From assembly GCF_014696385.1 (NCBI RefSeq), contig NZ_JACJQB010000003.1:62001-126000 (forward strand): a stretch of DNA of 64,000 nt, written 5' to 3'. The position numbers were made by a program, and so were the translations under genes. Shown here piece after piece: positions 6,998 to 44,052 of the stretch (the first letter of the stretch is position 1; every line of letters begins with the position of its first letter). Below the pieces are notes generated by a model. That model did no database searches. It saw only the letters and a program-made list of their open reading frames with translations, and had not been told where the DNA came from. Origin of the DNA: Pseudanabaena mucicola FACHB-723 (GTDB taxonomy: Bacteria > Cyanobacteriota > Cyanobacteriia > Pseudanabaenales > Pseudanabaenaceae).

Positions 6998-7621
6998 ATG
7001 CAAGGATCAATCGCTCCAGTCACTAGCACAGAACAAGCTAACGTTCTCGATCATGCCACTGAAGCAGGTCATGCTGAACATCCCGATTTACGGGTATTTG
7101 GTCTCATCGTCTTCCTGATTTCCGAAGGAATGCTTTTCTTTGGTCTGTTTGCCGCCTATTTAACTTTTCGCTCCGTAGCTACCGCTTGGCCCCCCGAAGG
7201 CACACCCGAACTGGAATTACTTTTACCAGGGATTAACACAATTATTCTGGTATCCAGTAGTTTTGTGATTCACCAAGCTGATCATGCGATCAAAGAAAAT
7301 AAAGTCAAAGCTGCTCAGCTATGGTTCCTCGCCACCTTTATCATGGGGGCAATTTTCATTGCAGGACAAATCTATGAATACCAACACCTCGAATTTGGAT
7401 TAACTACTAACCTATTTGCTAGCACTTTCTATGTGTTAACAGGTTTCCATGGCTTTCACGTAATTATTGGTTTGTCGCTGATTGCAGGAGTATTGGTGCG
7501 ATCGCTCAAAACTGGTCATTACAGCGATACGAGTCATTTCGGCATTGAAGCCGCCTCTGTATATTGGCACTTTGTCGATATTGTCTGGATCGTCTTATTT
7601 TTACTTCTATATATTCTGTAG
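6998..7621 (+). CDS. ctaE: Cytochrome c oxidase subunit III
   Basis: This is the non-catalytic core subunit that stabilises the oxidase and supports proton uptake. The product has 207 residues and five hydrophobic helices, the short bacterial form. It contains FLISEGMLFFGLFAAY, the conserved glutamate helix, then TGFHGFHVIIG and the terminal YWHFVDIVWIVLF signature, in which the WHFVD histidine is typical of the family. The start ATG at 6998 agrees with the family N-terminus, which has a variable, His-containing leader. It is the third gene of ctaCDE, followed by a terminator hairpin. Confidence 0.96.
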   Translation: MQGSIAPVTSTEQANVLDHATEAGHAEHPDLRVFGLIVFLISEGMLFFGLFAAYLTFRSVATAWPPEGTPELELLLPGINTIILVSSSFVIHQADHAIKENKVKAAQLWFLATFIMGAIFIAGQIYEYQHLEFGLTTNLFASTFYVLTGFHGFHVIIGLSLIAGVLVRSLKTGHYSDTSHFGIEAASVYWHFVDIVWIVLFLLLYIL

Positions 7622-7635
7622 AATTTTTTAGATAT

Positions 7636-7670
7636 AAAATAGAGGCGACGCACAGCGTCGTCTCTATTTT
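7636..7670 (+). terminator. Terminator of the ctaCDE operon
   Basis: AAAATAGAGGCGACG (7636-7650) pairs with 7656-7670 with a single G-T wobble, leaving a five-base loop and ending in T4. It lies between ctaE and the exosortase gene, so the latter probably needs its own promoter or read-through. Confidence 0.75.
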
Positions 7671-7682
7671 TATGGACTAGCC

Positions 7683-8570
7683 ATGCTTGACAATATTTTG
7701 CGCGGTGATTTTAGCGAGTTACAAAGCAAACTTCTCAACGCAACCAGTAAATTAGAATTTTGGTTACTCGCCACATGGGCAAGCCTAATTGCGATCAACA
7801 CCACACTTATTATTCGTCTTTCAAGTGATATTGACGAAATCGCCATTACTATATTGACTTGGGCGGTTGCCATTTTATTGGCTGTGCGTAATCGGTCAAG
7901 TTTTAAGTTTGAGAGTTCCCCAACTGCGATCGCAGTTGGGGTCTTGCTGATCGGCTGGGTTTTACTCAAAAGCCTCTTGACTCGGCGTATCTATGACATC
8001 TTGTTCATCCTAACCCCGATTATGGGAACGATTGGAGTTGCGTTGATTGCGTCCGGCTGGAAAGGGTTAAAGCCCTATTGGCAACCCATATTATTGGCGG
8101 CAACACTAGGTATTCCCATACCATTTTTATTTTCGGCCATTGAAAAAGTAATTCCCGTCAATGTCTTTACAGCGCAGTTTGCCAACTCAGCCCTGTGGTA
8201 TGGCGGTGTGGATGTTGCACAGAGAGGAATTACGATTGTTAGTCAATTTGGGGCAGTAGATGTGGCGAGAGGTTGTGCAGGCTTACCCCCCATTTTGATG
8301 TTATTGAGGATTACCCTAATGTTTGTGCTAGTCTTCCCCGTGACCAAATTTCATCAATGGGTTTTATTTTCTTCAGCGGTTGTGATTGCTTTTATCGTTA
8401 ACTCGTTGAGAGTTGCCCTATTGGTGATTGTATCTGCTCAAGACGATGCTTTTAAATATTGGCATACAGGCGATGGTGCTCAATTATTTTCAGTTGTATC
8501 TGTTTCGATTCTTTTAGGACTTTGCAATTGGCTGACTAGAGATGATGGCGATGAGTACGAAGAAATTTGA
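7683..8570 (+). CDS. Cyanoexosortase-type membrane transpeptidase
   Basis: Exosortases are multi-pass membrane cysteine proteases thought to cleave and process PEP-CTERM-type C-terminal sorting signals. The 295-residue product has about eight hydrophobic helices. The catalytic residues can be placed: Cys198 in VARGCAGL, Arg243 in IVNSLRVALL and His261 in YWHTGDGAQ, giving the Cys-Arg-His arrangement of the family. The spacing and the H-TG-GA-LF context resemble the cyanoexosortase A subgroup. No obvious PEP-CTERM substrate or accessory protein is adjacent. The gene lies just 12 bp after the ctaCDE terminator and ends at a bidirectional terminator facing a lipoprotein gene. Confidence 0.85.
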   Translation: MLDNILRGDFSELQSKLLNATSKLEFWLLATWASLIAINTTLIIRLSSDIDEIAITILTWAVAILLAVRNRSSFKFESSPTAIAVGVLLIGWVLLKSLLTRRIYDILFILTPIMGTIGVALIASGWKGLKPYWQPILLAATLGIPIPFLFSAIEKVIPVNVFTAQFANSALWYGGVDVAQRGITIVSQFGAVDVARGCAGLPPILMLLRITLMFVLVFPVTKFHQWVLFSSAVVIAFIVNSLRVALLVIVSAQDDAFKYWHTGDGAQLFSVVSVSILLGLCNWLTRDDGDEYEEI

Positions 8571-26954: not shown

Positions 26955-27156
26955 AGTCCTTATCCCTATCGGATCATAATCACTTTAAGTGTAGTAATTA
27001 TAAAAAAGTTGTGAATGCCATATAATCTCACCAAGCTATCTTTGGTGAAACAAGAAAAAGTCAGTAATTATGTCAACATAATTCGGCATAAGTATTTATG
27101 CTTGGGCAACCCAAACATAGTTGTCAATCAAATTAATCATGGGGCGGTTAAGATTT

Positions 27157-29325
27157 ATGTCTGCTAATTATTCCGAAACTTCTGTCGAATGGATGCAAAT
27201 GCGATCGCAGATTTTGCAACCCTACCTCGTTACCAAGGCAGAACGGGGAATTATTGGTAAAAGCCGCTATGCCACACGTTTACGCCAACAAATCAAGCAA
27301 GCCAGTGAAGACCATCAATCGGTGCTGATTTTGGGTGAACCGGGATTAGATAAAGATAATATTGCCGCCCTGATTCATTTCAACTCTGCTAATCGGCGGG
27401 AATCGATCGCCAAAATCAATTGCAGTCTGATTCAAGCAAATGGCGCTGAGCTATTTGGGCGGACAGGGATGAATCAAGGTCTATTGGCATATTTGGGTAA
27501 GGGAACTTTAGTTTTAAATAATGTGCAGGAGTTGCCCAAGGAGCTAATTCCGCAAATCGAACAACTGCTAGAAAAGGGAACATTTAAGCCTGTTGGTAGT
27601 GATGAGTTGGCGAGCTGTGAAGCAAGGATCATCATGGTTTCAGAGAAACAAAAGTCCTTACGCAATTCATTGATTCACCATTCCATTAAAGTGCCATCAT
27701 TAAGGGTGCGAAAAGTTGATATTCAACCCCATGTGGAGTATTACATTAGTTTATTCTGTCGCGATCGCGGGATTCCTAAACCCACCATCACCGCCGAAGC
27801 CCTTCGCAGTCTCCAAAGTTATGACTTTATCGGTAATTTACAAGAGCTACAACTTTTAGTCGAACGAGCGATCTTACAAGCACAGGGATCACAATCGCTA
27901 GACGAATCAGTATTTTGGGCAACTCAACCCAAGGGTAAAAAGTTTCGCTTCAATCTGCTCAATGCCTATCCCAATCTTCGCAATTTCTTACGCAGTGATT
28001 GGTTTCCTACCCGTATCAACTATGGATTTACCTTAGGTTTTTTCGCGATTGTGGTCGCCACCCTATTTCTGGCACCCCAAACTCGCGATCGCAATATTGC
28101 TTTAAACATGTTTTGGGCATGGTGGTGGCCCATAATTTTAATTGCTTTTCCCTTTGTCGGGAGGCTCTGGTGTTCTATCTGTCCATTCATGATTTATGGG
28201 GAGGTCGTGCAGAAATTATCCCTATGGCTATTTCCCCGTCAACTGCAACCATGGAACCGAGATCTGTCTGAGCGATGGGGTGGCTGGTTTCTATTTGGTC
28301 TATTTGTAATCATTTATCTATGGGAAGAGCTATGGGATTTACAAAATACTGCCTATCTGTCTGCCTATCTATTGTTACTAATTACCGCAGGTGCAGTGAT
28401 TTGCTCACTCATTTTTGAGCGTCGATACTGGTGTCGCTACCTCTGTCCAATTGGTGGCATGAATGGATTATTTGCCAAGCTCTCGATGACCGAACTCCGC
28501 GCCCAGCAAGGAACTTGTTCGGCGGAATGTACCACCTATCAATGCTATAAAGGGGGCGCACAAAAAGGAGAAGGATTAGAAACCAATGGATGTCCGCTCT
28601 ATTCTCATCCTGCCCAACTGCAAGAAAATCGCGACTGCGTGCTGTGTATGACCTGTCTCAAGGCATGTCCCCATCGATCGGTCGAGTTCAATCTTCGCCC
28701 TCCCGCGATTGAATTGTGGACTACCCATATTCCCCGCACCTATGAAGTTGCGCTATTGCTATTACTGCTTGGTGGTGCATTTTTGCACCGATTGCCAGAG
28801 ATTTCCCTCACATTGGGTTTATCTACTAGCTTTACACCATTCTTTCCCCATTTAGGTCTATCCATCACAATCTTGCTCATGACTGCGGCAATCCCTTTAG
28901 CGGCTCACCAAATAATGCGATCGCTATATTGGTTCACTATCATTTTGAAAAAGAACTGTGAATCTTGGCAAATGCCGATCCCCCTCAATGTCTACAAGCC
29001 GAAACCCTTTATCCAAGTTGCCTACGGATATTTACCCCTCGCCTTAGGCGCAAATCTTGCCCATTATCTGCGTCTCTTTTTAGAAGAATCTGGTCGATTA
29101 CTGCCCGTCACTTGGGCAACTATTGGTCTTGATGGTGCAACATTACCAGTGGTCGTCGCACATCCTGCTGTCATTGCATTCTTACAGGCAGTCACCTTAA
29201 TTTTTGCAGTATTGCTCACATGGATACTCACTCAAAAGATTGCCCGCCAACCTTGGCAATCACTGTTACCTCACCATGTCAGCACATTGCTTTTTGCGAT
29301 CGCATTATGGACAATTGTTATTTAA
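27157..29325 (+). CDS. Degenerate sigma-54-activator AAA+ domain fused to NapH/NosR-like membrane polyferredoxin
   Basis: The 722-residue product has two parts. Residues 25-250 align by pattern with the central AAA+ domain of NtrC-type activators, but the key residues are damaged. Walker A reads GEPGLDKD (60-67) instead of GESGTGKE, Walker B ends LVLNN (118-122) instead of LDE, and the GAFTGA loop is missing. It still has ELFGRTG at 98-104 and FIGNLQELQ at 224-232. Residues 285-720 hold about nine membrane helices and ferredoxin-like cysteines: C339/C342, C426/C430, C454/C458/C463/C479, and C494-x2-C-x2-C-x3-C504-P. The start at 27157 is preferred. ATG 27139 or TTG 27121 are alternatives. The protein probably passes electrons at the membrane. 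Confidence 0.85.
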   Translation: MSANYSETSVEWMQMRSQILQPYLVTKAERGIIGKSRYATRLRQQIKQASEDHQSVLILGEPGLDKDNIAALIHFNSANRRESIAKINCSLIQANGAELFGRTGMNQGLLAYLGKGTLVLNNVQELPKELIPQIEQLLEKGTFKPVGSDELASCEARIIMVSEKQKSLRNSLIHHSIKVPSLRVRKVDIQPHVEYYISLFCRDRGIPKPTITAEALRSLQSYDFIGNLQELQLLVERAILQAQGSQSLDESVFWATQPKGKKFRFNLLNAYPNLRNFLRSDWFPTRINYGFTLGFFAIVVATLFLAPQTRDRNIALNMFWAWWWPIILIAFPFVGRLWCSICPFMIYGEVVQKLSLWLFPRQLQPWNRDLSERWGGWFLFGLFVIIYLWEELWDLQNTAYLSAYLLLLITAGAVICSLIFERRYWCRYLCPIGGMNGLFAKLSMTELRAQQGTCSAECTTYQCYKGGAQKGEGLETNGCPLYSHPAQLQENRDCVLCMTCLKACPHRSVEFNLRPPAIELWTTHIPRTYEVALLLLLLGGAFLHRLPEISLTLGLSTSFTPFFPHLGLSITILLMTAAIPLAAHQIMRSLYWFTIILKKNCESWQMPIPLNVYKPKPFIQVAYGYLPLALGANLAHYLRLFLEESGRLLPVTWATIGLDGATLPVVVAHPAVIAFLQAVTLIFAVLLTWILTQKIARQPWQSLLPHHVSTLLFAIALWTIVI

Positions 29326-29391: not shown

Positions 29392-29432
29392 CAAAAGAGA
29401 TTTGCGGCGCGAAGCGCCGCAAATCTCTTTTG
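29392..29432. repeat. 19-bp perfect palindrome between the AAA+/polyferredoxin and BMP genes
   Basis: CAAAAGAGATTTGCGGCGC (29392-29410) pairs perfectly with 29414-29432 around GAA. The core TTGCGGCGC-GAA-GCGCCGCAA is identical to that of the hairpin after trpE (44018-44052). It lies 67 bp after the upstream stop and may terminate it. The rest of the 247-bp gap is AT-rich. Confidence 0.8.
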
Positions 29433-44019: not shown

Positions 44020-44052
44020 GTGAATTGCGGCGCGAAGCGCCGCAATTCACTT
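44018..44052. terminator. Hairpin overlapping the trpE stop codon
   Basis: AAGTGAATTGCGGCGC (44018-44033) pairs perfectly with 44037-44052 around GAA. The trpE TAA stop (44017-44019) overlaps the left arm. Its central core is identical to that at 29392-29432. It is also 5 bp from the end of the convergent ABC gene, so it may stop both. Confidence 0.85.

Follow-up and report, generated by a model that had tools for sequence, protein, structure and literature searches.

Published work describes cyanobacteria as devoid of both sigma-54 and its activators (PMC3162934), and the absence of sigma-54 from cyanobacteria also appears in another survey (PMC12282138). What, then, could a sigma-54-activator-type AAA+ domain do in a cyanobacterium, and on a membrane iron-sulfur protein? 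We analyzed such a gene from Pseudanabaena mucicola, located within a 64,000-nt stretch of DNA (hereafter, the window). An earlier note on this DNA had read the product as an NtrC-like domain stripped of its catalytic features and joined to a NapH/NosR-like membrane protein, on which the fold may have been reused as a sensor or assembly module.

The gene is a single open frame, without a stop or frameshift in the ORF translation, and is present in one copy in the genome:

27157..29325, plus strand: fusion-protein coding sequence, 722 aa, ATG start; the N-termini of orthologues in L031-L034 align from this Met

An alternative in-frame TTG start at 27121 would give 734 aa. Residues 30-255 have a predicted NtrC-type AAA+ fold and residues 257-722 correspond to a NapH-like membrane protein. 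A search across cyanobacteria, as the earlier note had proposed, covered 292 genomes of the phylum, of which 73, from 46 of 115 genera, gave a match; every one of these belongs to the photosynthetic class. A further 393 relatives came from the species collection, both genome sets being samples rather than exhaustive. Both halves were full-length and in one open frame in most of the 73 matching genomes, so neither a frameshift nor faulty assembly can account for the fusion; the two halves are thus genuinely joined and are not separate genes. Our literature search found no paper on the fusion family. The earlier note had called it the best candidate in the window for an undescribed system; it belongs, however, in shortened form, to a widespread family and is not a system specific to the window.

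The N-terminal half contains the following features:

27250..27651, plus strand: sigma-54-activator-type AAA+ core, residues 32-165 (PF00158; fold match NtrC1 3m0e, rmsd 2.1)
27334..27357, plus strand: degenerate Walker A, GEPGLDKD, residues 60-67 (from the sequence)
27454..27504, plus strand: shortened L1 region, the GAFTGA site in activators, 17 aa against 25 in the three true activators compared
27505..27522, plus strand: Walker B remnant TLVLNN, with Asp and Glu both replaced by Asn (from the sequence)
27640..27693, plus strand: shortened sensor I/arginine-finger region, 18 aa against 29 in the same three activators
27703..27891, plus strand: AAA lid, residues 183-245 (Pfam PF25601, AAA_lid_14)

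The resemblance of this half to NtrC activators was confirmed by three kinds of comparison. Sigma54_activat (PF00158) matched residues 32-165 with 65.6 bits against a cut-off of 20.2, NCBIfam matched an NtrX/NorR/PspF-type AAA domain, and in an AlphaFold2 model built from 63 sequences (mean pLDDT 85.7) the AAA part matched NtrC1, PspF, FleQ and VpsR by Foldseek, the match to 3m0e extending over 244 columns. Within the genome, the fusion protein was the strongest sigma-54-activator-type match by a wide margin (69.5 bits, followed by a runner-up at 31); the rest probably represent generic AAA proteins.

The catalytic motifs of the domain are largely degraded across the family. The earlier note considered Walker A lost, which is correct in that the motif is degenerate; however, the third Gly is the sole change in the window protein, where K66 is kept together with the acid that follows it. 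Sigma-54 activators read GKE at this site, so an acid after the Lys is common to both, and GEPGLGKD is present in some close homologues. Out of 131 homologues, 123 had a Walker A of the GEPG/GEQG/GEPS type, with the third Gly replaced by Asp or Glu in 114 and retained in 9, while the remaining 8, all belonging to a sister family, had GxxGxGKT. The NN ending of Walker B was as the note had described, and none of the 131 homologues had DE at this position, so that no close relative with an intact ATPase domain came to light. Most sequences of the window's family, including its Cyanobiaceae branch, have lost the Walker B Asp. All 8 sister-family sequences have Asn in place of the catalytic Glu, and 5 of them retain the Asp. 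GAFTGA, likewise noted as missing, was absent from the window protein and from all family members and present in the three true activators, and no homologue had an arginine-finger helix. ATP hydrolysis by the AAA domain is predicted to be absent, whereas nucleotide binding was probably its ancestral state, as the intact P-loop of the sister family indicates, and may persist in the window protein with its retained K66.

These motifs bear directly on the idea of an energy-charge sensor, in which the AAA domain would bind nucleotide without hydrolysis and gate the Fe-S half. The sister family combines a full P-loop with the Glu-to-Asn change, as in ATP-trapping Walker B mutants (e.g., 3m0e), and K66 and the acidic residue persist in the window's family. 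Nevertheless, we regard this sensor as unlikely, given the acidic replacement of the third Gly in so many sequences and the loss of the Walker B Asp from most members of the window's family and of the Cyanobiaceae branch within it.

Could the domain still act on transcription? No Sigma54_DBD match was found in the Pseudanabaena mucicola genome, and a search for rpoN in 116 genomes of the class gave no credible gene and only two short partial matches. Together with the lack of a catalytic Walker B and GAFTGA in the family, this excludes classical activation, as far as can be judged from sequence, in agreement with the earlier note. The AAA+ core and lid resemble those of NtrC/NorR/PspF-type sigma-54 activators by sequence and predicted fold, but the fusion protein lacks the Walker B DE, GAFTGA, the arginine-finger segment and the DNA-binding domain that these activators have, and, unlike them, it is joined to a membrane protein in a genome without sigma-54.

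A non-classical role is conceivable, since VpsR is understood to act without sigma-54. The protein could be a membrane redox-sensing transcription regulator, with the Fe-S half as the sensor of redox state and sigma-70 RNA polymerase or DNA as the target of the AAA domain. VpsR was the nearest PDB sequence to the AAA part, its entry title reports c-di-GMP binding, and one relative is automatically annotated as a "nitrogen assimilation regulatory protein". However, VpsR is a soluble regulator, whereas the lid of the fusion protein leads directly into the membrane half, Pfam detected no DNA-binding domain, and the GAFTGA and arginine-finger segments are deleted, making such a regulator quite unlikely.

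The membrane half is defined by its cysteines:

27925..29322, plus strand: NapH-like membrane Fe-S half, residues 257-722, about nine predicted membrane helices
28171..28182, plus strand: first Cys pair, C339/C342 (CxxCP), invariant in 131 homologues
28432..28446, plus strand: second Cys pair, C426/C430 (CxxxCP), invariant in 131 homologues
28516..28668, plus strand: ferredoxin-like stretch with C454, C458, C463, C479, C494, C497, C500 and C504, conserved in 130-131 of 131 homologues

Pfam identified two Fer4_5 stretches in this half, and the NapH model TIGR02163 aligned at residues 332-512 with 46.8 bits, below its cut-off of 213 (NCBIfam). As in the NapH/MauN family (TIGR02163), membrane helices carrying CxxCP and CxxxCP precede a ferredoxin-like stretch; the fusion protein differs in having about five extra C-terminal helices and no adjoining NapG/NapC genes. 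Of the "NapH/NosR-like" label, the NapH likeness therefore stands, whereas no NosR model matched the Fe-S half. The "at least four Cys clusters" of the earlier note are better described as 12 conserved cysteines, namely two pairs and a two-cluster ferredoxin-like stretch (454-504), each found in 130-131 of the 131 homologues. They would suffice for three predicted [4Fe-4S] clusters. Nine helices would agree with the hydropathy and the loop charges, which also allow the prediction that both the AAA domain and the Fe-S loops are cytoplasmic. The membrane half modelled alone reached a pLDDT of 85.7 and a pTM of 0.85; a PDB fold search returned no solved-structure match to it at an E value of 0.001 or better, and VIA-align gave weak helical-bundle matches only.

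Outside cyanobacteria, the entire membrane half, including the extra helices, aligned with 4Fe-4S proteins of Deinococcus and haloarchaeal plasmids at 26-31% identity, and, unlike in the fusion protein, no AAA or cNMP domain was found in these. We infer that the membrane half arose first and that the AAA domain joined it later. In L139, a His-rich 308-aa protein without a Pfam match (7105-8031) overlaps the start of the Deinococcus relative. In the phylogenetic tree, which was midpoint-rooted for drawing only, the window clade (support 98/97) was separate from the sister family (100/100; about 42% identity to the window's family), and the true activators joined the path between them.

Most relatives are longer than the window protein, at 830-900 aa, and the difference lies at the N-terminus:

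27196..27216, plus strand: site of the cNMP-type domain (about 130-150 aa in relatives), missing in the window protein

An N-terminal extension was present in 108 of 132 relatives compared, and Pfam identified it as a cNMP_binding domain (PF00027) in the one longer relative scanned. The Glu-Arg pair of the phosphate-binding cassette, as taken from a PKA regulatory subunit, was complete in none of the 108 extended relatives. Pseudanabaena is among the few lineages that have lost the domain. Because the domain-less Pseudanabaena sequences start like the longer proteins, the first ~13 residues of the window protein (SETSxEWxQxRS) included, its removal by internal deletion is suggested. Within its family, the window protein is therefore a reduced form.

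Such losses invite the view that the AAA domain, too, is a functionless, decaying relic carried by the Fe-S half, as its catalytic motifs are gone and the cNMP-type domain has disappeared completely from Pseudanabaena and those few lineages. However, the AAA core and lid are under purifying selection between distant species (pN/pS of 0.15-0.27 in the AAA core versus 0.04-0.12 in the Fe-S core), so that the domain is on paper a dead ATPase, yet one under selection. The frames also stay open across most genera holding the gene, and the existence of AAA-less relatives of the Fe-S half outside cyanobacteria implies that loss of the domain should be tolerable. We therefore consider a relic highly improbable; the selection on the domain fits its proposed reuse as a regulatory or assembly module.

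Gene neighborhoods differ between the two families. By simple ORF calling, no recurrent neighbor or operon was found for the window's family in up to 81 loci, and no partner, operon or conserved neighbor points to a particular redox process for it. The window itself contained no periplasmic Fe-S or cytochrome partner gene. In the sister family, cysK lay directly downstream of the gene in 7 of 10 loci. Sister-family copies in L143, L144, L160 and L123, on plasmids or chromosomes, were located in gene islands related to sulfide or sulfur. Extra psbA and PetC (Rieske) genes accompanied two plasmid copies, and one of these had DsrE and rhodanese nearby as well; L160 contained an SQR-like fragment, a BigR-like regulator, a Blh-like MBL-rhodanese and CydA, and L123 contained Hdr-like genes and a rhodanese. 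These sulfide islands with variant psbA and Rieske genes suggest a place for the protein in membrane electron transport, either photosynthetic or respiratory. The sulfide link itself is that of the sister family; for the window protein it is only a hint.

In some Cyanobiaceae, genes for a Fur-family regulator and an MBL-fold-like protein come after the gene (L128, L129, L130 and L133), or ZnuABC-like genes lie on its flanks (L131 and L132). A membrane reductase for zinc or iron homeostasis would be in line with the Fur-family gene lying directly downstream at four loci of one genus, with the ZnuABC-like genes beside two loci of another, and with a haloarchaeal relative that adjoins a metal cation transporter and P-type ATPases. 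However, the Fur and Znu neighbors were absent from 12 further Cyanobiaceae loci (leaving out a thirteenth, a sister-family copy), and none was recurrent for the window's family; a metal-homeostasis role is thus very unlikely. A link to nitrogen fixation was rejected: by a hand count from two lists, 33 of 45 nifH-positive genomes have the family, but so do 40 without nifH above the cut-off, and the window protein's own genome has no nifH above the cut-off.

Noncoding sequence around the gene was also inspected. No upstream motif common to the Pseudanabaena loci, including the window, was seen by eye, and a palindrome near 27080 was not common to the other Pseudanabaena loci. Separately, perfect hairpins at 29392-29432 and near 44034, with stems of 19 and 17 bp, have the core GGCGCGAAGCGCC, which occurred 71 times in the genome versus 0 for a reversed-pattern control. 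The outer arms of the two hairpins are unlike each other and each is still self-complementary. Similar hairpins occur upstream of orthologues in L031, L034, L035 and L036.

The reading we prefer, to which we assign a probability of roughly one half, is that of a membrane polyferredoxin whose sigma-54-activator-derived, non-hydrolysing AAA+ domain serves as a regulatory or assembly module. All Fe-S clusters would face the cytoplasm, and the protein would carry electrons between ferredoxin, as the probable carrier on the cytoplasmic side, and either the quinone pool, for which contact is predicted, or an extracytoplasmic acceptor. The AAA domain might gate this passage by binding nucleotide or a partner, or might hold subunits together.

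The gene thus places an activator-derived AAA domain, widespread in cyanobacteria, on a membrane Fe-S protein despite the reported lack of sigma-54 activators. Should the module prove to gate electron flow, an ATPase of transcription activators would have become, as has rarely been seen, a controller of an oxidoreductase that works without hydrolysis; cyanobacterial membrane electron transport would also gain a hitherto unrecognized component, possibly one relevant to sulfide tolerance. More tentatively, the proteins may form an undescribed cyanobacterial membrane electron-transfer family under two degenerate signalling domains, of the cNMP and sigma-54-activator folds, with housekeeping and sulfide-island forms that link energy or redox state to photosynthetic electron flow.
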